Origin: a virus
Virus record (IMG/VR): IMGVR_UViG_3300018048_000062
Coordinates: 1-23,768 of that record
Length of the DNA stretch: 23,768 bases
Reading direction: 5' to 3' (one strand)
Shown in pieces: positions 4,529-23,768 of the stretch (position 1 is the stretch's first letter; the number at the start of each line of letters is the position of its first letter). The translations under genes and the position numbers were made by a program. The notes under the pieces were generated by a model. The model was not told the DNA's origin. It ran no database searches and saw nothing but the letters and a program-made list of their open reading frames with translations.

Positions 4529-4536
4529 TATTTATC
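4529..4536 (-). promoter_or_regulatory. Possible late promoter box, one mismatch
   Basis: The minus strand reads GATAAATA, one base off TATAAATA, about 37 bases before the ATG of the 4109-4492 gene. It overlaps the stop codon of the preceding gene, whose Gly-stop sequence contributes GATAA, so the similarity may be coincidental. Confidence 0.25.
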
Positions 4537-5056
4537 CTGCTATTTCTAATAAAGTAATTGAGCTTTGTGCAGTATCTCCCGTAAACCCAACAGTATTTGA
4601 GTCAGTACACGCAACATAAAGCATATATGTCGTGCTATTTGTCGTAGTCGGTGAATCTAAATACACAAGAGAATCTGCGGAGTTAGAGTAAAACCCACTT
4701 GTGTTGTTATAGTTATAGATTCTTTTAACAAATCTAAACACAGAAGATCCATCTCTATAAAGATAGGCTTTGTTTGTACCATTATTTTGGCCATAGCTAT
4801 TTAGCCATAGACTGGGGCTTGCAAGCACTAATACTTTATTTGATGCGCTTGAAGGCGTAATAGATAATGTTAGCTCTGTTGACACAGGTGATGTAGAAGT
4901 TGTACTAAAATTTGTGTTGCCATCAGTAACATAATTCACAACTTGCAACACAGACCCACTCGGTAAATCAGTCCCTAAAAGATTATACTCAGTAATCCCA
5001 GTCGGCAACGTCGTAATATTGGAGAGCGCTTTGTTGTTTGGTCTGATCAGTGCCAT
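4532..5056 (-). CDS. Small fibre-like virion protein, EIAG family (copy 8, last of array)
   Basis: This 174-residue beta-rich protein is probably a tail-fibre or baseplate decoration. It carries the family plan: a variable N terminus (MALIRPNNKALSN), the hinge LPSGSVLQVV at about 31-40, then LSITPSSASNKVLVL, YLYRDGS, YLDSPTTTNSTTYML and the ending SSITLLEIAG. It is the most divergent ending at DNA level: the junction repeat found after the other copies is lost here, as would be expected for the terminal member with no copy following it. It starts on TAATG overlap with the previous gene. No catalytic motif, signal peptide or membrane segment is seen. Confidence 0.75.
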   Translation of the reverse strand: MALIRPNNKALSNITTLPTGITEYNLLGTDLPSGSVLQVVNYVTDGNTNFSTTSTSPVSTELTLSITPSSASNKVLVLASPSLWLNSYGQNNGTNKAYLYRDGSSVFRFVKRIYNYNNTSGFYSNSADSLVYLDSPTTTNSTTYMLYVACTDSNTVGFTGDTAQSSITLLEIAG

Positions 5057-5604
5057 TACCCTGCGATCTCCATGAGTGTGATTGTAGTAGGAACATTTGA
5101 TCTATTGCCGTCACCAGTGTTCCAACTTCCTCCGATCCCAATGTTATATTGAGTTTTCTTGGCTTGTAATTTATACGTTACTGCATCCGTTGTTGATGGT
5201 GAGTCCAAATGATTTATGGACCAATGTTTTGCCCATACAGTAGGATTACCTGCGTTCTGCTGTGATAAATCCAAAGATGTTCTTTGTGCGCTACCTCTAG
5301 AGTCTCCGATAGCGATTTGAGTTGAATTACGAACTAAAACAGCATATGCAAAATTATCCGCCGCACCTGCTGAGGAAGCCCCAGTTACACTAACTAAAAT
5401 TTTACTTGACGCAGAAGATGGCGTGATTGTTGCAGAGACTCCAGTCACATCAACATAAGCCGTTGACGATGTGGAAAAGAAATCCGTTTTTGTCACACTA
5501 ACAACCTGAATCACACTACCTGGAACATACAGTGTATTACCACTCGCCACATTGATCGTATTGCCTTCAAGCGGAGCAATATTGTTCACGTACATTGTTG
5601 ACAT
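5056..5604 (-). CDS. Small fibre-like virion protein, EIAG family (copy 7)
   Basis: This 182-residue member opens MSTMYVNNIAPLEGN, a short head also seen in copy 2 of the array (MTTLYVDNISPN). It then has YVPGSVIQVV around residues 26-35 and continues with VTGVSATITPSSASSKILVS and HLDSPSTTDAVTYKL, ending TTITLMEIAG. The central receptor-like part, with WAKHWSINHLDS, differs from its neighbours. One-base TAATG overlaps bind it to the genes on both sides, so all neighbours are probably translated from one message by coupling. It is likely an external virion protein. The family is widespread in marine phages, but I know of no proven function. Confidence 0.75.
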   Translation of the reverse strand: MSTMYVNNIAPLEGNTINVASGNTLYVPGSVIQVVSVTKTDFFSTSSTAYVDVTGVSATITPSSASSKILVSVTGASSAGAADNFAYAVLVRNSTQIAIGDSRGSAQRTSLDLSQQNAGNPTVWAKHWSINHLDSPSTTDAVTYKLQAKKTQYNIGIGGSWNTGDGNRSNVPTTITLMEIAG

Positions 5605-6104
5605 TAGCCGGCGATCTCCATGAGTGTAATAGTATCAGTTCCCGCAACAGCACGAAAGAACGAAGATGCATCTGCAACCTTCACATATACGGTATAAGTT
5701 GTAGCAGATGTTGTAGCTGGGCTATCATATATCTGATATGTTCCGCTAAAACCTACGTTTCCTCCTGGATGGTCATACATAAAAAGACAAGTACCTGAAG
5801 GACGTAAATTAGTTGCTCCTCGGTAAATAGCCACTTGTGATTGTATATTTGAACCGCCGTCTTGTGTAGCACTAAATGTAGCAGATACATATATTTTACT
5901 TGATGTACTAGTAGGTGTAATTGTTGCAGTAAGAGTAGTAGCAATAAAACTTGTTGAGTTTGTATTGGTTGCTGTAATAATATCATTTGCACCAATAACC
6001 TGAATCACATGACCAGGTGCATATAAAGTATTCCCAGCCTGAACTGTAACGGTGCCGGTACCAGCAACTGTGGAGATATTATCAGCACGTACTATTGATG
6101 TCAT
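5604..6104 (-). CDS. Small fibre-like virion protein, EIAG family (copy 6)
   Basis: This is a 166-residue family member. The N terminus is MTSIVRADNISTVAGTG, followed by TVQAGNTLYAPGHVIQVI, which closely parallels NTLYVPGSVIQVV in copy 7, so these two look like the most recent relatives at the N-terminal end. The core has LTATITPTSTSSKIYVSATF, IYRGATNL and YDSPATTSATTYTVYV, and the end is DTITLMEIAG. Its ATG overlaps the previous stop by four bases (ATGA). The junction to the next gene carries GCCGGC in place of the usual CCTGC, a small variant of the shared junction repeat. Role inferred as for the array as a whole. Confidence 0.75.
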   Translation of the reverse strand: MTSIVRADNISTVAGTGTVTVQAGNTLYAPGHVIQVIGANDIITATNTNSTSFIATTLTATITPTSTSSKIYVSATFSATQDGGSNIQSQVAIYRGATNLRPSGTCLFMYDHPGGNVGFSGTYQIYDSPATTSATTYTVYVKVADASSFFRAVAGTDTITLMEIAG

Positions 6105-6646
6105 CCTGCGATCTCCATTAGGGTTAAATAAGTACCCGAACCATAATCTGTCCCTGCGTTACGCCTGTTAACGTAGATCGTGTTGTCTCCACGGATCTGA
6201 AGTTTGTATGTGACAGCAGAAGAGCTTGAAGGGGAATCTTGATAAGAACAAGCCGCAAGCGCAGTCATATTGTTGTAAGACCCTGAAGCCTGTCCCGCTA
6301 TACCACTTAAAGTAGAACCTTCTGTCCCCACGCCAACTACTGTTCCATTTCGTTCAAGTCGAACCATTCCATCACCACCTGCCATAGCAAAAGCAACGAT
6401 ACCTGTTATTAAAATTTTTGAGGAAGAGCTTGATGGAGTAATATCATCTTCTAAAACTGTGTGCCACGAACCACTATTATAAGCTTCCATGTTTGATTTC
6501 AGTCTATTGCGAACCTGTAACACAGTACCCGCAGGAGGACTCCAAGTGTTGATATCCAAAGTCTGACCAGCGGGTATTGTAATCGTATTCGGTGTATCGC
6601 CCGAACTTAAACCTTTTAATTGTTCAACTGATAATATTGATGCCAT
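6101..6646 (-). CDS. Small fibre-like virion protein, EIAG family (copy 5)
   Basis: This 181-residue member has an N-terminal head, MASILSVEQLKGLSSGD then ITIPAGQTLDIN, that is closely related to copy 1 at 16295-16831 (MASELIVQTLKGPTTGA, VIIPSGQTLECS), about 10 kb upstream, rather than to its immediate neighbours. After PPAGTVLQV come ITPSSSSSKILITG, RLERNGTVVG and YQDSPSSSSAVTYKL, ending TYLTLMEIAG. It begins on a TAATG overlap with the 6646-7113 gene. The head similarity across the window is evidence for exchange or block duplication rather than simple tandem duplication. Confidence 0.75.
   Translation of the reverse strand: MASILSVEQLKGLSSGDTPNTITIPAGQTLDINTWSPPAGTVLQVRNRLKSNMEAYNSGSWHTVLEDDITPSSSSSKILITGIVAFAMAGGDGMVRLERNGTVVGVGTEGSTLSGIAGQASGSYNNMTALAACSYQDSPSSSSAVTYKLQIRGDNTIYVNRRNAGTDYGSGTYLTLMEIAG
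6102..6118 (-). repeat. 17-base junction repeat, copy c
   Basis: On the plus strand this reads catcctgcgatctccat; on the coding strand it specifies Met-Glu-Ile-Ala-Gly-stop and the overlapping next ATG. Identical copies lie at 7111-7127, 15784-15800 and 16296-16312, all in direct orientation, with shorter forms at 5060-5073 and 5608-5621. Confidence 0.85.
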
Positions 6647-7113
6647 TATACCACCGTAAATGTCCCTTGGACCACAATCTCTGCATTAATATCTACAGGA
6701 CCTGCTACCATTGCATTCTGATTTGCACCAACAGTAAAGTTTGTGTCAATGCTGTTACTATTTATTCGCACTGGAGTCTCGGTTACGGCAATCGCAGAGT
6801 TCAACTTTGCGGCGGTGACTGCTCCATCAGAGACTGTGGCAAGATTATTTGCCTGGCCAATTGCAAGAATAAAGTTAATGTCATCATTTGAATCCAGTGT
6901 CTCTGAAAATGTAATGGTAGAACCAGAGACAGTAAATGAAGATCCAGGTGCCTGAATAGTACCATTAACCGAGACAAGTAATTGTTCAGCAATGTACTTT
7001 GACTGAGGTTGTGAATTCTTTGAAAGAGTAAACTGGTCAGAATCACCAACGACAACAATCGTATCAAGGACAGTGAAATCACCAAAGCTTGGAGTATTAC
7101 CGATTACGCTCAT
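6646..7113 (-). CDS. Short structural protein with AGP...VV C-terminal motif
   Basis: This is a 155-residue protein of the kind usually annotated as a virion structural or fibre protein in marine phages. It opens MSVIGNTPSFGDFTV, like the first residues of the fibre at 7807-9258 (MAVIGNSPATTGTTV). The first part resembles a small beta-domain that ends with FSETLDSNDDINFILAIGQA. A connector VSDGAVTAAKLNSAI leads to the C-terminal signature NQNAMVAGPVDINAEIVV and final TFTVV, shared with 16833-17177, 20552-20776 and 20777-21541. Four-base ATGA and one-base TAATG overlaps join it to EIAG genes on both sides. Function unknown; probably an adaptor or appendage piece. Confidence 0.7.
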   Translation of the reverse strand: MSVIGNTPSFGDFTVLDTIVVVGDSDQFTLSKNSQPQSKYIAEQLLVSVNGTIQAPGSSFTVSGSTITFSETLDSNDDINFILAIGQANNLATVSDGAVTAAKLNSAIAVTETPVRINSNSIDTNFTVGANQNAMVAGPVDINAEIVVQGTFTVV

Positions 7114-7622
7114 CCTGCGATCTCCATTAAAACAATTCCATGCTCTGAAGTATCATGTGCAAACCCCACAGAGTAACTTGCATTGTTTGTTCTGAATTGT
7201 ACTTTATAAGTAATTTGTGATGTTGTGCTTGGTGAATCTAAATGACAAACCGACACGCCTTCTTGCCCGTACTGTGATAGTTGATTCCATGCAACATAAT
7301 CTTGCGCCGTAATTACTGTTGAGTCTCTTAGTAATTGTATAAAAACTGCATTGTTTGTATTGCCGGGGGCCTTTCTAACAGATGTGTAATACGACACTAA
7401 AATTTTAGAACTCGTAGAGGAAGGTGTAATGCTTACGATTAACCCTGAATCAACAAACGATGTTGACGTTGTAGACTCATCTGCACTAGATGAAGTTTGA
7501 ACAACCTGAATCACACTCCCACTAGGCAATGATCCTATTTTAGCAGCACTAATCGCAGATGATCCAATCGCATCCGAATCAATGAGATCCTGTAGATAAT
7601 TTGGAATCTTACTCAGAGCCAC
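7110..7622 (-). CDS. Small fibre-like virion protein, EIAG family (copy 4), GTG start
   Basis: This is a 170-residue member. Translation starts at GTG (7622), preceded by GGAGG at about 8 bases, the strongest ribosome site in the array, and the start overlaps the end of the 62-65-residue partner gene by 14 bases. The N-terminal segment DSDAIGSSAISAAKI (about residues 14-28) is almost the same as DSDAIGSGAVSANKI in the fibre at 13994-15259, so the head looks borrowed from a fibre. Then come LPSGSVIQVVQ, VSITPSSTSSKILVSYYT, LLRDSTVI and HLDSPSTTSQITYKVQF, ending HGIVLMEIAG. It is probably a decoration or receptor-binding piece. Confidence 0.75.
   Translation of the reverse strand: MALSKIPNYLQDLIDSDAIGSSAISAAKIGSLPSGSVIQVVQTSSSADESTTSTSFVDSGLIVSITPSSTSSKILVSYYTSVRKAPGNTNNAVFIQLLRDSTVITAQDYVAWNQLSQYGQEGVSVCHLDSPSTTSQITYKVQFRTNNASYSVGFAHDTSEHGIVLMEIAG
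7111..7127 (-). repeat. 17-base junction repeat, copy d
   Basis: This is an exact copy at the boundary of the 7110-7622 EIAG gene and the 6646-7113 AGP gene. The downstream gene here belongs to another family, so the repeat is tied to the EIAG ending and not to what follows. The identity extends by two bases (tta) with copies at 6102 and 16296. Confidence 0.85.
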
Positions 7623-7806
7623 TGTCGGCCTCCTGTATTACGAGCTCACCCGCCTCAACCTGACGCATGATTTCTGCGTAGTGACGGTTAGCAGGATCGA
7701 GTGGGACAAATATCATCTGACCATCAATGACTGCGTTTATTGAGTCATTTTGTCCATTCATAATGTTGGTTACATATTGCGCTGAAGTAATGTTCATCTG
7801 TTCCAT
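7609..7806 (-). CDS. Small partner protein of fibre (PLDPANRHYAEIM family, copy 3)
   Basis: This 65-residue acidic protein begins MEQMNITSAQYV and has the core AVIDGQMIFVPLDPANRHYA then EIMRQVEAGELVIQEAD. The PxDPANxxYxxxxxxxxxGE pattern is common in small proteins and N-terminal domains next to phage tail-fibre genes, often linked to fibre assembly. The ATG directly follows the TAA of the fibre at 7807-9258 with no base between, so the two are almost certainly co-translated. Two paralogues (13803-13991 and 17186-17374) follow fibres of the same family in the same way. The constant pairing suggests a chaperone, attachment factor or co-assembled subunit specific to that fibre type. No cysteine, signal peptide or membrane segment is present. 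Confidence 0.7.
   Translation of the reverse strand: MEQMNITSAQYVTNIMNGQNDSINAVIDGQMIFVPLDPANRHYAEIMRQVEAGELVIQEADSGSE
7645..7707 (-). repeat. 63-base near-identical segment of partner genes, first location
   Basis: It differs from 13836-13898 at six of 63 positions by direct reading. It codes for the VPLDPANRHYAEIMRQVEAGE region of two partner genes and is the most conserved piece of those genes. Confidence 0.8.
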
Positions 7807-11207: not shown

Positions 11208-13778
11208 TTATTCCGTTGGTGTATCCGTTGTCACGCGATATGCGCCTGTGTTAACTGGTTGCCAATCATTATTATTTCCTGATTCATCACGCCAGAATGC
11301 AGAGTCGCGAGTATCAGCAAAGGCAGCATAGATATATGTTGTACCATTACCGTTTGATCCTGCATTATCATTTTTCAGCTGAAAACCAGTGTCAGTAATT
11401 TCTATATCCTGACCAGTTCCTTCTGCATTTGACCTATTTGGAAATAATAGTGCATTGGTTGGATTGGTTGTATCACGGGTATTATCGTACATGTTCCAAT
11501 GATCTACTGCACTGGATGGTTTTAAAATAACAAGTGCGGGTTTAAAGCCTGTGGTAATTATTGGCCCTGTTGTAGATCCATTGCCTGTGTAAGATCCAAA
11601 CTTAGAGTAGTTTGTGACACTATGGAAGGCATAGCATATAAAAGGTTGACTGCTTGCATTTACCCAAGAGTCAACACCTAAAGTAAATGTGCTTGAGCTA
11701 ACCCCTGTTACATTATTATTAGCTGAGGAAAAAGCTGCGTCACTTTGTAACTGCAAATACCCAGATGTCATCCCAACACCAACATGATTAACAGACCAAC
11801 CAGTTGTAGTGTTTCTCGCCTTGATAATTAACATTTCTGGTGTGGAGCTTAATCCGTGACCAACAGTAGCTCCATTAGTATTGTTACCAGTATAAGAAAC
11901 AATTGAGAAACCGTATGTCTGGTTAGCCCGTACTGTGGAGGTTATCGAGCCATCGGTATTGGATACGTTTGAGTCTCCTGCTTTCCAACACCAAGCAACG
12001 TACCCAGAACCATTTTGGTTTGTGTAATAAGGAATGTTTGATCCAGACCATTGTGTTGAGAATCCATCAGAATCAAAAGACGAAAGCCAATCATATTGAG
12101 ATAATGATAAACCACCCTCTGTACTTGTGGTGTTGGGACTTAATTCTTTGTTAGATCCCGTACCACGCACTGAGTCAAATAAAATATGATGATTTGCCCC
12201 GCCACGATTTTTTATCCAAACTAAATCTGGTGAAAAGCCGACTCCGGTTCTAGGCCTTAAAGTTCCTGATCCATCGCCACGCCAAGTAATAGTATTAAAC
12301 GCCTCAACCGATGTATCATTTGTCATCGGCAGATGGAAACCATTGGATCCATATGATCCAGTGTAATCTTTTGGAACCCACACATCATTGTATGATTCAG
12401 CGAATGATGTATATGTGAGTGCTTGCCCGTCAATGAAGTGGACTTCGGTCATGTAGCCGTCATGAAAAGAATCAATGCTAGTTATCTTTCTAGCTCCAAC
12501 CGTATGCAATTTTCCTGATTGATTGATTTCAAATTCTTCGTTTAATTGAATCTCGTCTTTACCGCTTTGAAGAACAAAAGTTGTATCTTGGACGCCATTG
12601 ACATACACCTTAATGCGATCACTTGCGGATGCTTGGGTTGTGTCTATTGTAAGAACGATGTGATACCAAGCACTAGGATCTGAATATCGTGCAGTGCTTC
12701 TGTAAAACACATGACCACCACTTGCATCTCCTGGCCTATGTTGAAATTGTAAAGTATCTGTATCAGTGCCAAATCCAAAATTAGTATGATTGCTATTATC
12801 AGTTCCCGCAGCAAACAAGCCTTTTTCAGCAGTTGTGTTTACCAAACCTCGTTTGACCCAACAAGAAAATGTAAATTTTTTCCTATCGGTTGGAGTTCCC
12901 GCTGTCCAACTTAAATACTGATTATCATCATCATTAAACATCAGACTCTGTGGAATACTGTATGCATAGATCTTTCTCAGTACAACTAGATTAAATGCAC
13001 GGCTATTCGTCTGATTTTCATCATCCGTTGCAGTCACAGTAAAGTTATAAGTTGTTGTACTTGACAGATCAGGTGTTGTACCATCGATCGTTCCGTCTGA
13101 ATCAAATGTTAATCCAGTCGGCACTGCGCCAGATGTAATAGAATAACTTAATGTACCACCATCAGGTTCTGCCGCAACAATTGTAATAGTAGAAATCGTA
13201 GTACTTGGAGCAAGATCATTACCAATTTGTCCTGCAGGTGTAGTAAACGCAGGTAATCCATTGAATGAAATACCATTTTGAAGTGTTGCATTTAATCCAT
13301 TACTATTCGTAACCACAACATCATAGTCACCGGCAGTCTTTGCTGGAGTCGTAGCAGTAATGGAAGTAGATGAATTAACAGTAACAGATGCAGCAGCAGT
13401 ATCACCAAATGTGACATTGGCACCTGATTGGAAGTTGGTACCAGTAATCGTTACGGTTTCACCACCAGCAGGATCAGCGCCAAGTAATCCACCAGAATAT
13501 GCAAGTGCTGTAACAGTTGGTGGAGTATCAACTGCTTGCCATCCATCAGAAACATATTGTTCCAATCGACCGAATGTGGTATTGAATCTTAGATGACCAA
13601 CAGCAGGAGAACCAGGACGTTCCCCAGTAGTACCGACCGGTACCTTGACATAATCACCGGTCAGCTCAAGATTTGGAGCAAGCATATCCGAGGTAATCGT
13701 ATCATTACCAAACTGAGTGGCTTTGATCTTACCGTCTGCTCCAAGTAGATTTGCTTGTGCCCTTGCTTTACTGGCCAT
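11208..13778 (-). CDS. Large multidomain tail adhesin (IPT/TIG, Ig-like, LamG-like, DUF7483-like)
   Basis: The protein has 856 residues, the largest gene in the window. Residues 1-84 are a fibre-type head (TQFGNDTITSDMLAPNLEL, GHLRFNTTFGRLEQY). About 86-172 are an IPT/TIG domain (GGETVTITGTNFQSGANVTF). About 175-268 are a putative Ig/cadherin-like domain (GTLSYSITSGAVPTGLTF, YNFTVTATDDENQTN). About 275-480 are a LamG/concanavalin-like domain (KFTFSCWVKRG, WYHIVLTIDT, KVYVNGVQDTTF, VHFIDGQALT). About 490-820 are a DUF7483-like domain (GFSPDLVWIKNRGG, YVAWCWKAGD, GATVGHGLSS, YSKFGSYTGNGS). It closes with AFADTRDSAFWRDESGNNND and WQP. Its stop is in frame with the next gene. It is most likely a long side fibre or receptor-binding adhesin. 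Confidence 0.82.
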   Translation of the reverse strand: MASKARAQANLLGADGKIKATQFGNDTITSDMLAPNLELTGDYVKVPVGTTGERPGSPAVGHLRFNTTFGRLEQYVSDGWQAVDTPPTVTALAYSGGLLGADPAGGETVTITGTNFQSGANVTFGDTAAASVTVNSSTSITATTPAKTAGDYDVVVTNSNGLNATLQNGISFNGLPAFTTPAGQIGNDLAPSTTISTITIVAAEPDGGTLSYSITSGAVPTGLTFDSDGTIDGTTPDLSSTTTYNFTVTATDDENQTNSRAFNLVVLRKIYAYSIPQSLMFNDDDNQYLSWTAGTPTDRKKFTFSCWVKRGLVNTTAEKGLFAAGTDNSNHTNFGFGTDTDTLQFQHRPGDASGGHVFYRSTARYSDPSAWYHIVLTIDTTQASASDRIKVYVNGVQDTTFVLQSGKDEIQLNEEFEINQSGKLHTVGARKITSIDSFHDGYMTEVHFIDGQALTYTSFAESYNDVWVPKDYTGSYGSNGFHLPMTNDTSVEAFNTITWRGDGSGTLRPRTGVGFSPDLVWIKNRGGANHHILFDSVRGTGSNKELSPNTTSTEGGLSLSQYDWLSSFDSDGFSTQWSGSNIPYYTNQNGSGYVAWCWKAGDSNVSNTDGSITSTVRANQTYGFSIVSYTGNNTNGATVGHGLSSTPEMLIIKARNTTTGWSVNHVGVGMTSGYLQLQSDAAFSSANNNVTGVSSSTFTLGVDSWVNASSQPFICYAFHSVTNYSKFGSYTGNGSTTGPIITTGFKPALVILKPSSAVDHWNMYDNTRDTTNPTNALLFPNRSNAEGTGQDIEITDTGFQLKNDNAGSNGNGTTYIYAAFADTRDSAFWRDESGNNNDWQPVNTGAYRVTTDTPTE

Positions 13779-13799: not shown

Positions 13800-13807
13800 T
13801 ATTTATT
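13800..13807 (-). promoter_or_regulatory. Possible late promoter box, one mismatch, before the large adhesin
   Basis: The minus strand reads AATAAATA, one base from the T4 late consensus. It lies 22 bases upstream of the ATG at 13778, giving room for a short leader with an AAAAGAGAA ribosome site. It overlaps the end of the preceding small gene. Position is good but the match is imperfect. Confidence 0.4.
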
Positions 13808-13991
13808 CGGGTTCATCTGCCGGTTCTATAGTTAACTCACCCGCCTCAACCTGCCGCATGATTTCTGCGTAATGGCGGTTGGCAGGGTCTAGTGGGACTA
13901 CCGTAGTCACACCATCAATGACTGCTGTAATGTCAGTGTTTTGTCCAAAACCTGCAATATACTGTGCATTTGTAATAGTCATTTCATCCAT
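13803..13991 (-). CDS. Small partner protein of fibre (PLDPANRHYAEIM family, copy 2)
   Basis: This 62-residue protein reads MDEMTITNAQYIAGFGQN at the start and VVPLDPANRHYAEIMRQVEA then GELTIEPADEPE at the end. It is the closest relative of the 7609-7806 product; 63 bases of the two genes (13836-13898 and 7645-7707) differ at only six positions, several of them in third codon positions. Two bases separate it from the TAA of the fibre at 13994-15259. It is followed by the large adhesin rather than by EIAG genes. Same inferred role as a fibre-specific assembly or attachment partner. Confidence 0.7.
   Translation of the reverse strand: MDEMTITNAQYIAGFGQNTDITAVIDGVTTVVPLDPANRHYAEIMRQVEAGELTIEPADEPE
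13836..13898 (-). repeat. 63-base near-identical segment of partner genes, second location
   Basis: Counterpart of 7645-7707 in direct orientation; the third partner gene (17186-17374) is clearly diverged over the same part. Confidence 0.8.
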
Positions 13992-15300: not shown

Positions 15301-15786
15301 TTAGCCTGCGATTTCTTGAACAATTAGGGTTTGATATTCCGCCCACGGAGGAAGTTCAATTGATCCACCGGCCCTCGAACGCCAATATACTGAATACGTT
15401 ATTGAAGCTGTTGTAGCAGGAGAATCTAAATAACTGATAGCCACATTATCCCGACCCCCTGTATATCCAGTGCCACCAAAACCGTTAGTAGAATCTCCTA
15501 AATTAGTACCACCCCTATAAAACGTAACAAGCACAGCCTCTGATCCTGCACCTGCGGTTAAACTTGTGGTTAATAAAAATTTACTACTTGCAGAAACTGG
15601 GGTTAAAGTTACAGATAAATTTGTAGCAATAAAGGACGTGCTTGTAGTAACAGTGTTTCCTGTTGCTTGGTTTAAGTCTTGATACACGTTAATTACAGAC
15701 CCAGTAGTATTCAACCCAAGATCACCCGCAGTTGGTGTCGAACCATTAGCCAGTTGGATTTGATCGACTTTGATTATACTGCTCAT
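15301..15786 (-). CDS. Small fibre-like virion protein, EIAG family (copy 3)
   Basis: This 161-residue member begins MSSIIKVDQIQLANGSTPTA and lacks the usual PSGSVIQVVQ hinge, having NTTGSVINVYQDL instead. The core keeps LSVTLTPVSASSKFLLTTSL, FYRGGTNLG and YLDSPATTASITYSVYWR. The ending is LIVQEIAG, where the usual Leu-Met is replaced by Val-Gln, and its DNA junction has diverged as in copy 8, the other terminal member. Both block-final copies have thus lost the junction repeat. A four-base ATGA overlap joins it to copy 2. Likely an appendage protein; function unproven. Confidence 0.73.
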   Translation of the reverse strand: MSSIIKVDQIQLANGSTPTAGDLGLNTTGSVINVYQDLNQATGNTVTTSTSFIATNLSVTLTPVSASSKFLLTTSLTAGAGSEAVLVTFYRGGTNLGDSTNGFGGTGYTGGRDNVAISYLDSPATTASITYSVYWRSRAGGSIELPPWAEYQTLIVQEIAG

Positions 15787-16298
15787 CCTGCGATCTCCAT
15801 CAGTGTTAGAGTTGAGATTTCATTATTTGATTGTGAGGCAACTTCGCCACTATTAGCGTCTGTGTATGCGCCGTTCATAGTTTTATATGTAATTGCTGAC
15901 GTAGTAGCAGGACTGTCTAAATAGTGAATGTTCACAGGAGAATATAGTTCAATATAACCATTCCCCGCTGTTCCTGCCGCAATACCAGCTTTTCTTGCGT
16001 GGTTATAGACAAGAGTCGCATCTCTGTACAATTGAATCTTGAGTATGTTTAAGGCGTTCGTGTTCCTAGCGACATAATGCTGTTGATCTACCAACACCAA
16101 AATTTTATTAGATGTTGATGTGGGTGTGATAGTTGCCGTTAATCCTGTGTCAACAAAGCTTGTACTTGCATTAACAGTTGTTGTGCTATATGTGCCCTGA
16201 ACAACCTGAATAACACTCCCACTAGGAAGCTGAAGGTTAGGCGCACTGATCTTACTCGCGAGATTCGGGGAGATGTTGTCTACATAGAGTGTTGTCAT
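15783..16298 (-). CDS. Small fibre-like virion protein, EIAG family (copy 2)
   Basis: This 171-residue member has the head MTTLYVDNISPNLASKISAP, then LQLPSGSVIQVVQG at about residues 23-36. It continues with TASTSFVDTGLTATITPTST-like sequence, SNKILVLVDQQHYVAR, QLYRDATLVYNHA, HYLDSPATTSAITYKT and the ending ISTLTLMEIAG. The central insert around HARKAGIAAGTAGNGYIELY is unique to this copy and may be a surface loop. ATGA overlaps connect it to both neighbours, and both junctions carry the exact 17-base repeat described separately. Role as for the rest of the array. Confidence 0.75.
   Translation of the reverse strand: MTTLYVDNISPNLASKISAPNLQLPSGSVIQVVQGTYSTTTVNASTSFVDTGLTATITPTSTSNKILVLVDQQHYVARNTNALNILKIQLYRDATLVYNHARKAGIAAGTAGNGYIELYSPVNIHYLDSPATTSAITYKTMNGAYTDANSGEVASQSNNEISTLTLMEIAG
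15784..15800 (-). repeat. 17-base junction repeat, copy b
   Basis: Exact copy at the ATGA overlap between the EIAG genes at 15783-16298 and 15301-15786. Confidence 0.85.
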
Positions 16299-16831
16299 CC
16301 TGCGATCTCCATTAAGTAAATACTGGAGTTACTGTTATCATTTATACGCACCTGAACACCTTCACCAGTCGTTGCAAATTGCACAATATATGTAATTGAA
16401 GTTCCAGCAGGTTGAGCAGGTGCATCAATCAATGTAAAACAACCGTGTCTATCTGCGTCACCTGATGAGGTGTTATTAGCACGTTGTATACGGCTTGATG
16501 ATAGCTCAGTGTCTGACCCAGAAATACGTCTGACTAACTTAATGTTCATAGCGGGGTGGCTTAATGGTGATACTCCTACGGTAAAACTCAAAACAAATTT
16601 AGAATTGGCTTGTGTAGAAGTTACAGTTAAAGAAACATTGCTATCCGCATAAGTTGTAGAAGTAGAAGTTACTTGACCTCCAGGAGCATCAGTTGCAGTT
16701 TGCAAAATACTGCCCGGTGCAACTACTGCGCTAGAGCATTCCAACGTCTGCCCAGACGGGATAATCACCTTGTTCGCATTGGCCCCTGTTGTCGGGCCTT
16801 TCAATGTTTGTACTATGAGTTCGCTTGCCAT
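16295..16831 (-). CDS. Small fibre-like virion protein, EIAG family (copy 1)
   Basis: This is a 178-residue member and the first EIAG gene to be transcribed. The head MASELIVQTLKGPTTGANAN with VIIPSGQTLECS matches copy 5 near 6600. It then reads VAPGSILQTATDAPGGQVT, VSLTVTSTQANSKFVLSFTV, RISGSDTELSSSRIQRAN and TLIDAPAQPAGTSITYIVQF, ending SSIYLMEIAG. The usual YLDSPATTS segment has become LIDAPAQPAGTS, so this copy is divergent in the core but standard at its C terminus. Its ATG is one base after the TGA of the 16833-17177 gene. Confidence 0.75.
   Translation of the reverse strand: MASELIVQTLKGPTTGANANKVIIPSGQTLECSSAVVAPGSILQTATDAPGGQVTSTSTTYADSNVSLTVTSTQANSKFVLSFTVGVSPLSHPAMNIKLVRRISGSDTELSSSRIQRANNTSSGDADRHGCFTLIDAPAQPAGTSITYIVQFATTGEGVQVRINDNSNSSIYLMEIAG
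16296..16312 (-). repeat. 17-base junction repeat, copy a
   Basis: Exact copy at the ATGA overlap between the EIAG genes at 16295-16831 and 15783-16298. Confidence 0.85.
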
Positions 16832-17182: not shown

Positions 17183-17190
17183 TATTTATC
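17183..17190 (-). promoter_or_regulatory. Possible late promoter box, one mismatch
   Basis: The minus strand reads GATAAATA six bases before the ATG at 17177 and overlapping the preceding stop codon. It is close to the start codon and imperfect, so this is a weak candidate. The same bases may serve only as part of the AAGGA ribosome site and stop. Confidence 0.2.
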
Positions 17191-17374
17191 CTTCATCCGC
17201 AGGTTGAATCTCAAGTTCACCTGCTTCTACTTGTCTCATGATTTCCGCATAGTCTGAATTTGTAAGATCAATTGGGACTGACCACTCTTGACCATTAATC
17301 GTTGCATTGACACACTTAATATTATTTTGAGAATCCTTCACATACTGAGCCGATGTAATATTCATAGTTTCCAT
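17186..17374 (-). CDS. Small partner protein of fibre (PLDPANRHYAEIM family, copy 1, divergent)
   Basis: This 62-residue protein starts METMNITSAQYVKDSQNN and ends YAEIMRQVEAGELEIQPADE plus Gly. The middle has drifted: VPIDLTNSDYAEIM replaces VPLDPANRHYAEIM, so the Pro-Ala-Asn core is lost while both termini are retained. That suggests that the terminal segments matter most in this protein. The ATG directly follows the TAA of the fibre at 17375-18532, with the same 20-base junction as at 7801-7820. Inferred as a fibre-linked assembly or attachment partner. Confidence 0.7.
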   Translation of the reverse strand: METMNITSAQYVKDSQNNIKCVNATINGQEWSVPIDLTNSDYAEIMRQVEAGELEIQPADEG

Positions 17375-21554: not shown

Positions 21555-22064
21555 TTATAAACTATTTATAGGCCAATTATTGATGATTGAGACTCCGTCA
21601 GAATCCGTTTCATACAATGCCATGAATTCGTTTAGGTTAACTGTCGCATTAATTGCAGTTTCAATAGTATTTGAAGCCTGACGAACTGCTGTACGATATG
21701 TCGATACTGCTTCTGGTATTGAATCTCCAGTCTCTGAATTTCTTACAATATACCAATCAGTCATCTGAAGTAGACCACCAGCAGTTGTCTTTGTCTGATT
21801 CACTGCATTTGTTTTAAGTCCAGGCGTGGTAATTAATTCACCAGCACCATCGGAATCAATGACATCCTCGAGTGCTCTTGGAACATCTGGTGCCCAATAG
21901 AATCGATTGTCATAAGATACTGGTTGGAGGTCTTCATTCCAGACCAGACCTTTTGCTGCTTTCTCTTCGTCAGACCAATTATTCCAAGAATATGGATGTT
22001 GAGTACCGGTATTGTCGGTCCAAGATCTTCCGACCCGTATGACTTTACCTAAGTAAGTCCACAT
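21555..22064 (-). CDS. Fibre-linked protein with chaperone-like C-terminal region
   Basis: This is a 169-residue protein. The N-terminal half is MWTYLGKVIRVGRSWTDNTG, YSWNNWSDEEKAAKGLVW and NRFYWAPDVPRALEDV, a Trp-rich unit I have seen in marine phage fibre clusters. The C-terminal half has LLQMTDWYIVRNSETGDSIP, then STYRTAVRQASNTIETAINA, similar in layout (TDW..., YR.A.R) to the tail assembly chaperone group at 4109 and 18584. AGGAGA precedes the ATG by nine bases. It follows the split adhesin at 22080-23768 and may be its assembly helper; the client is inferred from position only. Confidence 0.62.
   Translation of the reverse strand: MWTYLGKVIRVGRSWTDNTGTQHPYSWNNWSDEEKAAKGLVWNEDLQPVSYDNRFYWAPDVPRALEDVIDSDGAGELITTPGLKTNAVNQTKTTAGGLLQMTDWYIVRNSETGDSIPEAVSTYRTAVRQASNTIETAINATVNLNEFMALYETDSDGVSIINNWPINSL
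21563..21570 (-). promoter_or_regulatory. T4-type late promoter box inside the end of the 21555-22064 gene
   Basis: The minus strand reads TATAAATA exactly, 22 bases before the ATG at 21541. Initiation 6-7 bases downstream would leave a short leader with AAAAGAGA. The box is embedded in the codons for Pro-Ile-Asn-Ser near the C terminus of the upstream gene. Confidence 0.65.
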
Positions 22065-22079
22065 TGTTTTTATCTCCTA

Positions 22080-23141
22080 TCAGCGAGCGTTGCTGTACTT
22101 AAATGGGTTTTCGGCAAAGGCCATGTAGATGTATGTACCGCCTGATGCATTGGTGATAACACTAGACGTTCTTGCTTTGAAGCCGTTAGATAAAATGTCC
22201 CATACGTTGTTATAGCTTAGATATTCAGCACTTGAGTAGTTAGCCCAAATTGCTTTGTATGCAACATTATATTCATCACGGGCAACATCATACATATGCC
22301 AATCACCAGTGCTATCTGTCCGCTTGCTCATAATAAAAGCAGGTCTAAACCCTGTGTACACAAATGGGCCATCTGCATTACCGTTGCCGACATAACTAGA
22401 AAACTTTGAGAAACCTTCGACATTGTGGAAGCAGTAGGCGACATGCGTACTAGAACTTGCGAATCTCGACCCGCCAACAGTGAAAACATTTAATGTCGGC
22501 TCTGTATCGTCAAAGAATGTTGAGTCAGTACGCACCGCGTCAGAATTGTTAAACCGCAAATTCTTGGTAGCACCTAATGCACTATGATAGACCTTGTGAT
22601 CTGATCCACTTGTATCCCTACGCAAGAATAAAATGCAATCAGGCGCACTAGATAGCCCATGTCCTACTGTTTCGTTTGAGCCAGTTCCGGTAAATGTAAC
22701 AATACTAAACCCAGACTCCGTATTCGCACTCACTTGTGAGTCAATAGAGCCTTCCTCGTTCAATGTCGCAGAGCCGTTGGCTTTCCAGTTCCAAGCAACG
22801 TGCGTTCCTGTGTTGTCATTCCCTGCTGATTCAACGCCGTGAGTAAATCCATCAGAATCAAACGACTTTACTCCTTCTGATTTTGTTTGCTCTGCCGTTG
22901 TTTGATTTGATTCTAAGAGCTTAGTAACACCCCTGACGGAATCATATAGTTGATGATCTGCCGCAGAGTTTCTTTGCTTTATCCAGACCCAATCAGGTTG
23001 AAATCCGACCCCAGTTACAACCTTATCGCCAGATGTTCCTGAGTAGGCTACCGTATTAAAGTAATCCTCTGGACTGCTTCCCTGTGCAGGGTCTATCGCA
23101 GGATCGGGTAGGTTGGCTGTGCTGAGTGATAAATATGCCAT
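22080..23141 (-). CDS. Adhesin fragment or subunit: DUF7483-like domain
   Basis: This 353-residue protein begins MAYLSLSTANLPDPAIDPAQ and is DUF7483-like throughout: GVGFQPDWVWIKQRNSAADH, LYDSVRGVTKLLESNQTTAE, HVAWNWKANG, SIVTFTGTGSNETVGHGLSS, FSKFSSYVGNGNADGPFVYT, GFRPAFIMSKR and the end YMAFAENPFKYSNAR. It matches residues 175-531 of the 9609-11204 product, where the SPRY-like domain is fused in front. Here that domain is encoded upstream and ends with TAG; the frame is the same across the stop, and AGGAA around the TAG acts as ribosome site for this ATG. Cysteine of the family's YVAWCWKAG motif is Asn here (AWNWKANG). Confidence 0.8.
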   Translation of the reverse strand: MAYLSLSTANLPDPAIDPAQGSSPEDYFNTVAYSGTSGDKVVTGVGFQPDWVWIKQRNSAADHQLYDSVRGVTKLLESNQTTAEQTKSEGVKSFDSDGFTHGVESAGNDNTGTHVAWNWKANGSATLNEEGSIDSQVSANTESGFSIVTFTGTGSNETVGHGLSSAPDCILFLRRDTSGSDHKVYHSALGATKNLRFNNSDAVRTDSTFFDDTEPTLNVFTVGGSRFASSSTHVAYCFHNVEGFSKFSSYVGNGNADGPFVYTGFRPAFIMSKRTDSTGDWHMYDVARDEYNVAYKAIWANYSSAEYLSYNNVWDILSNGFKARTSSVITNASGGTYIYMAFAENPFKYSNAR

Positions 23142-23150
23142 GTCTAGTTC

Positions 23151-23768
23151 CTACGCAGGTGGATCGTACTTGAATGGTTGTTGGCCAAAGTTGACTACAA
23201 ATGTAGAACTAGCTCCTGAGTTACCATCCATGAACAATGGGAAGAAGTCGCCTAAACTAAGGTCAATACTAAATGATCCTTGTCCCGTACCATTCTTGTA
23301 AAACTCAATAGTCCCTGCATCCGCATCAACAGCTACACCAATCACATCACCTGCCGCAAATGAATCTCCATACGCTGATGTTGTTCCATTCACATCTTTT
23401 TGACCATCATTGAGATATCGGTATCGTATTAAAGTAGCACTGTATCTTAATGCTCCAATACCAAGATATGCGCTGTTACTTACCTCTACTGTTGCTTCCC
23501 AATAATATTGCCCTGACGATGGAATAGCCATTGTCCCATATGTCTCTGTTCCTGCGTTGTTTGTCGTAACACGTAAGTTTCCATCAGACAATGTTCCGGT
23601 AGGATTGTAACCACCATTAAAAGGATTCAACGTAGCAAAGTTATTCGTAGGACTGTCTGCAACGGTATCGTTATGGTCTAGGTTGACTGGTTGCCAATCG
23701 TTGTCATTACCAGACTGATCTAACCAGAAGGCCGCTTCTCTTGTGTCTGCAAAGGCGGCATAGATGTA
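23151..23768 (-). CDS. Adhesin, C-terminal part: DUF7483-like end plus SPRY-like domain (5' end beyond window)
   Basis: This is an open frame of 205 codons plus stop that enters from the right edge. A start further inside (a TTG at 23630) is not credible because the upstream codons are plainly homologous to a known neighbour: YIYAAFADTREAAFWLDQSG then NDNDWQPVN matches the end of the 11208-13778 adhesin. After ADSPTNNFATLNPFNG comes a SPRY-like domain, with TLSDGNLRVTT, SGQYYWEATVEVS, AGDVIGVAVDADAGTIEFYK and NFGQQPFKYDPPA. So here the LamG/DUF7483-type chain and the SPRY-like domain form one protein, whereas the paralogous locus has a stop at that point. The remainder, probably a large adhesin, lies outside. 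Confidence 0.82.
   Translation of the reverse strand, partial: YIYAAFADTREAAFWLDQSGNDNDWQPVNLDHNDTVADSPTNNFATLNPFNGGYNPTGTLSDGNLRVTTNNAGTETYGTMAIPSSGQYYWEATVEVSNSAYLGIGALRYSATLIRYRYLNDGQKDVNGTTSAYGDSFAAGDVIGVAVDADAGTIEFYKNGTGQGSFSIDLSLGDFFPLFMDGNSGASSTFVVNFGQQPFKYDPPA

Follow-up and report, generated by a model that had tools for sequence, protein, structure and literature searches.

We find that the border between a SPRY-ended adhesin gene and the DUF7483 gene that follows it, on a 23,768-nt stretch of viral DNA (IMG/VR record IMGVR_UViG_3300018048_000062, hereafter the window), is a nearly invariant DNA hinge where unrelated modules probably swap. This was the main feature overlooked by an earlier reading of the same sequence (the initial annotation), which had seen two adhesin loci broken at opposite domain borders. 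The likely reading is that a phage receptor-binding adhesin exchanges modules at this junction, and that the cistron boundary in its hinge is optional.

On the minus strand, the SPRY-ended gene terminates with TAG directly after the residues DPPA, and an ATG opens the DUF7483 gene three in-frame codons on (GAT CCA CCT GCG TAG GAA CTA GAC ATG GCA TAT TTA; the DPPA-stop, GAA CTA GAC and ATG share one frame). The initial annotation had described this arrangement, including an AGGAA around the stop, and both the sequence and Pfam agree with it (Table 1). PF00622 matches residues 88-196 of the upstream gene (E 2.4e-12; 47.5 bits against the gathering cut-off of 26.3), which identifies the domain as SPRY, and PF24299 covers model positions 2-330 of 330 in the downstream gene (412.6 bits against a cut-off of 27), which identifies it as DUF7483. 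The upstream gene runs off the contig; in the related loci L004, L008 and L045, the chain upstream of the same stop reads LamG-DUF7483-SPRY. Alleles L129 and L137 have a stronger Shine-Dalgarno-like AAGGAG. By annotation only, the adhesin family falls under phrog_19943 (virion structural protein) and phrog_24898 (tail fiber protein). Taken alone, the in-frame arrangement is weak evidence, because 9 of the 25 close gene junctions in the window, about one third, are in frame. TAG is an ordinary stop in the window and also ends the first adhesin; recoding of TAG was ruled out, since it ends another gene and long genes lack it in frame.

Table 1 Features of the adhesin loci in the window (position 1 is its first letter) and, where indicated, in related loci
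Feature	Position	Strand	Basis or remarks
First adhesin, SPRY-DUF7483 fused in one frame, 531 aa	9609..11204	-	PF00622 and PF24299
Upstream gene of first adhesin: TIG, Ig-like (He_PIG), LamG-like, DUF7483	11208..13778	-	LamG-like by local profile, other domains by Pfam profiles; ends TAA-ACT-ATG
Hinge C, inside DUF7483 of the preceding gene	11854..12002	-	84-95% nt identity to L004, L005, L095, L096 and L098 over 77-179 nt
Tail-fiber assembly (chaperone-like) gene, 3' of split adhesin	21555..22064	-	phrog_4912 tail fiber assembly, E 2e-7
Hinge D, DUF7483 end and chaperone-like gene start	21860..22139	-	Several contigs match over 243-280 nt at 77-79% nt identity
DUF7483 gene, 353 aa	22080..23141	-	Protein start MAYLSLSTANLPDP; PF24299 E 1.4e-123
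Hinge B, about 135 nt, between SPRY and DUF7483 modules; contains stop, Shine-Dalgarno and start	23059..23193	-	DNA identity
AGGAA, Shine-Dalgarno-like	23148..23152	-	Overlaps the stop; 6 nt before ATG
TAG stop of upstream gene	23151..23153	-	TAA in hinge alleles L128, L130 and L137
Upstream adhesin gene, 3' end	23151..23768	-	DUF7483-type C-terminal end, then SPRY (about 23181-23507); runs off contig
Hinge A, DUF7483-to-SPRY border	23619..23768	-	Most split contigs and fused L005 match over 104-158 nt at 91-100% nt identity
Adhesin-preceding fiber protein, related loci	L158 1-1316; L162 10331-12037; L168 7457-9985; L177 1248-2372		

The hinge between the two modules (hinge B) stands out by its DNA. 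Five loci from our first survey have the window's junction, with near-complete DNA identity there, while the SPRY before and the DUF7483 after are at chance-like or approximately 50% identity. Altogether, 24 other loci are 83-98% identical to the window's hinge over most or all of its 135 nt, synonymous sites included, although loci beyond the first survey came from pattern scans and are biased towards hinge identity. The flanking modules (SPRY before; DUF7483 or LamG after) are mostly about 25-55% identical or cannot be aligned. Some hinge loci repeat one contig or allele, and removal of these repeats left the window and 19 other split alleles for comparison. Several fused loci match the downstream half of the hinge. 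In fused hinge alleles the linker (...TPPTGFVALSTANLPDP...) is uninterrupted and a single chain results, whereas in split alleles a short insert supplies a stop, a ribosome site and a start. Searches of cultured phages and GTDB species genomes gave no match to the hinge DNA. The phages that carry it are uncultured and probably of marine origin, judging by the hosts and sources of their nearest cultured relatives.

Two peptides at the hinge, LSTANLPDP and FGQQPFKYDPPA, are conserved, yet protein selection alone does not predict the agreement of codons that we find there. At positions with the same amino acid, codon identity was 0.92 in the downstream and 0.84 in the upstream part of the hinge, against 0.54 and 0.56 outside it, in six alleles that had been found via DUF7483 peptides without use of hinge DNA. 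We relied on this set because the test over all alleles is biased by how those alleles were found.

The modules on the two sides of the hinge are unlinked. Across 16 alleles, SPRY similarity was uncorrelated with similarity of the downstream module (Mantel rho 0.03, p 0.38); in five allele pairs one side was 88-100% identical and the other 23-52%, and none of the pairs among the 16 reached 80% identity on both. The downstream module can even be of another family, as in L095 and L097, where the second gene (open frames of 510 and 609 aa) opens with a LamG-like module instead of DUF7483. In one recombinant-like contig pair the change falls within the hinge itself. L085 and L129 share 7.9 kb at 98% identity as far as the hinge, and the DUF7483 beyond is 44% identical; at base level they are identical up to GCGTAGGA (to TAGGA, inside the hinge), after which they have different ribosome sites and starts, come together again in the remaining hinge and continue into different DUF7483 modules. 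The cistron boundary varies among close relatives as well: G008 is fused (1130 aa) and G015 split (1088 + 370 aa) within a 4.7-kb neighborhood of 96% identity, and of two related SPRY modules (78% nt identity over 584 nt), that of L140 has a fused exit border and that of L084 a split one. What we found is therefore the pattern of module exchange, namely conserved joints with variable, unlinked modules on both sides. One 52-kb contig (G001) starts and finishes in the hinge (L155 and L157; 1-263 and 51942-52081), and its ends carry two different SPRY modules and the same DUF7483 start; it may represent a circular genome from a population with two adhesin alleles.

The hinge also occurs in phages with different backbones. 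The window carries T4-like terminase, neck and sheath-stabilizer genes, and its terminase is matched in 3 of the 15 other records, which are fragments, at 25-28% identity. G002 has a tape-measure gene for the tail, the terminases of G001 and G010 belong to other families, and the portal of G016 to another family. The split contigs resemble the window at the nucleotide level only in adhesin regions in nearly all cases. The hinge thus appears to sit on T4-like, siphovirus-like and other backbones, with morphology labels that follow from gene families. On contigs with different backbones, the adhesin regularly follows a fiber protein whose C-terminus is similar from contig to contig (...VSATPAVTSAGA, ...VACSPSLTSQGA and alike).

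Three further conserved joints lie in the window (hinges A, C and D; Table 1); for hinge D, identity in the DUF7483 interior is far lower than at the joint. Outside the adhesins, an array of paralogous tail proteins of about 160-180 aa ending in (L)MEIAG (4532-7622 and 15301-16831) offers a second instance of conserved junction DNA between variable modules: its end codons, ATGGAGATCGCAGG, contain the ribosome site of the next gene, and stop and start often overlap. Three paralogous proteins of 62-65 aa (TSAQY / NAQY ... YAEIMRQVEAGEL; 7609-7806, 13803-13991 and 17186-17374) each come after a 385-483-aa GRRNLIING-motif protein ending in AEL, forming a repeated two-gene cassette.

To place the window's borders among relatives, we collected IMG/VR loci that resemble the DUF7483 gene (80 loci) or the first adhesin (27 loci), and mapped SPRY, DUF7483 and LamG-like domains in them with local profiles, with the window included in the counts. 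The initial annotation had proposed that the two loci of the window are cut at reciprocal borders, and had suggested surveying such borders in relatives. Within the window this is accurate: both Pfam domains of the first adhesin lie in one frame, so that its SPRY-to-DUF7483 border is continuous as described, and its upstream gene is separated from it (11208/11204) at the DUF7483-to-SPRY border. That second cut, however, is the sole one among 24 distinct borders of its kind and has no counterpart elsewhere. Fused and split forms both occur, but the splits concentrate on one side: the border at the SPRY exit was split in 15 of 86 cases (71 fused), and all other borders together in 2 of 91 (89 fused), an enrichment for which Fisher's test gives p 6e-4, a value that serves as a guide only because the loci are related and not independent. 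There is therefore a single favored split border, the SPRY exit, and no general tendency to break on either side of SPRY.

Repeated gene fission at a domain border, as the initial annotation put it, is supported for this one border. Fused forms dominate, and the split junctions are of at least four types: the window's TAG-GAACTAGAY-ATG, TAATG overlaps, TAAGGAGAAATATATG, TAA-CTT-ATG and TAATATG. The break comes before the linker motif LSTxNL in the window's type and after it (motif on the SPRY side) in the other types read, which indicates that the split types arose independently. Both states are found in complete genomes of cultured phages, with MEP301 gp16 and CRP-406 fused and Skadi-4 gp14/gp15 split at a TAATG.

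Structure prediction is consistent with a downstream piece that stands alone. AlphaFold2 modeled the split DUF7483 protein by itself with pLDDT 91.2 and pTM 0.89, which backs the earlier suggestion of separately folding pieces for the second piece and suggests that DUF7483 can fold by itself. The first 20 residues of this model are at 51-63; in the fused chain of the first adhesin (pLDDT 83.8, pTM 0.82) the linker is ordered, with blocks of residues 171-190 at 89 and 80. This comparison, drawn from two different proteins, is suggestive of a linker peptide that is ordered only when beside SPRY. In a Foldseek search with the fused first adhesin, the SPRY part matched Ash2L, DDX1 and RanBP SPRY domains (E down to 7.8e-11). 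For DUF7483, structural alignment gave weak matches only (best Z 5.9, to jelly-roll and cupin-like chains) and we therefore claim no fold family.

Could the stop instead be read through? The initial annotation had raised controlled readthrough, in which some ribosomes decode the TAG and produce a joined SPRY-DUF7483 chain, and most hinge alleles do retain TAG with an in-frame continuation free of further stops. The conservation of stop identity and in-frame continuation across alleles that would mark such a mechanism was nevertheless not found. TAA replaces TAG in three alleles; the starts lie at +6, +12, +14 and +19, out of frame in L129 (+19) and L137 (+14); unrelated split groups have TAATG overlaps in another frame; and TAG terminates another gene of the window in the ordinary way. 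Moreover, every allele has a start codon and most have a clear ribosome site. Since the stop may be TAG or TAA, the frame varies and the start codon is always kept, the stop and start of the hinge most plausibly form a cistron boundary, and we regard readthrough as very unlikely. Slightly less remote, though still improbable, is conservation solely for protein function or ribosome binding, with no exchange of modules. It would account for the two conserved peptides and for a ribosome site that must stay in place, but it leaves unexplained why synonymous codons are nearly fixed in the hinge when equally conserved residues elsewhere vary in codon, why the flanking modules are unlinked, and why the break between L085 and L129 falls inside the hinge.

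A constant joint flanked by variable modules also resembles, in outline, the border of a shufflon, so that programmed variation by site-specific inversion (a shufflon or tail-fiber invertase) or by a diversity-generating retroelement has to be weighed. Against it, PF00239 (resolvase) and PF00078 (reverse transcriptase) were each found in 0 of the 16 contigs and PF00589 (integrase) in 1 of 16, counts that refer to incomplete contigs; each contig has a single hinge, except one with a hinge at each end; and entire modules differ rather than scattered adenines. We give this explanation very little weight. Equally little falls to an assembly artefact, whereby hinge contigs would be chimeras joined at a shared repeat and splits would be sequencing errors. 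Most hinge contigs and module combinations come from single metagenome assemblies, in which a shared repeat of hinge length could yield chimeras, and a number of contigs have an end no more than about 200 nt from a hinge (G001 at both ends, G007, L091), as at an assembler fork. A split, however, takes an insert of several bases that brings in both a ribosome site and a start, and many contigs have one; identical module combinations recur in separate assemblies, two of them in three assemblies each (L082/L089/L100 and L084/L086/L088); and the complete genomes of cultured phages contain both fused and split states.

Module exchange at the hinge can be pictured as follows. The hinge would connect a SPRY module to a DUF7483 (or LamG) module, both of them exchangeable, and in co-infecting phages homologous recombination at the hinge would swap either side, even between unrelated virion gene sets, with fused and split alleles both kept in circulation. 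Split alleles would yield two proteins translated successively, the downstream one by coupled or independent initiation, and the two products would then assemble non-covalently on the same fiber or act as separate adhesins; we infer that the downstream protein probably joins the same fiber. More tentatively, and at rather long odds, the stop, ribosome site and start of the hinge may be kept for exchange that is independent of frame and fold, with the DUF7483 linker MAYLPLSTANLPDP docking on the SPRY protein. If they are kept for exchange, a recombinant at the hinge would always leave the upstream protein intact and start the downstream protein afresh; if the linker docks, the split adhesin would behave like a fused one.

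Exchange of adhesin modules is well known, and its joint has seldom been resolved to single bases. Tetart and Krisch reportedly described recombination of T-even distal tail fibers between conserved motifs, where conserved DNA segments in variable adhesin genes are said to be the recombination sites for exchange of specificity. The protein families there are different, and in our case modules are exchanged between phage families and a stop, ribosome site and start may lie in the joint. Both pelagiphage Skadi-4 gp14/gp15 (split) and Methylophilales phage MEP301 gp16 (fused) share the SPRY-then-DUF7483 order, but do not match the hinge DNA of the window. The distantly related Alteromonas phages A5, V22 and P24 have host-recognition modules in common, with fiber and chaperone genes shared by otherwise dissimilar podo-, myo- and siphovirus-like marine phages (PMC10579305). 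There whole genes are shared as a run, and several of their proteins are 45-96% similar (PMC10579305), whereas here a near-identical short hinge lies within the adhesin, the surrounding modules are exchanged and the hinge can contain a gene boundary. Recent domain shuffling has been reported for phage receptor-binding proteins, with mosaic tail fibers and spikes exchanged across phage families as here (PMC10684548). That work is at the protein level, and its main text leaves out stop codons and linkers; the splits into several ORFs that it does mention concern DNA polymerases and very long ORFs, and not a SPRY-DUF7483 joint (PMC10684548). DUF7483 was not mentioned in the literature searched.

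Within that literature, what is new is a base-resolved hinge that several phage types have in common, in which a gene boundary can lie and of which close relatives have natural fused and split alleles. A single hinge is common to phages with unrelated virion genes, and breakpoints can be placed inside it. If this reading is right, the hinge would flag exchangeable receptor-binding modules in uncultured phages and provide a DNA signature with which to find them, and whether a gene boundary helps module exchange would become testable.
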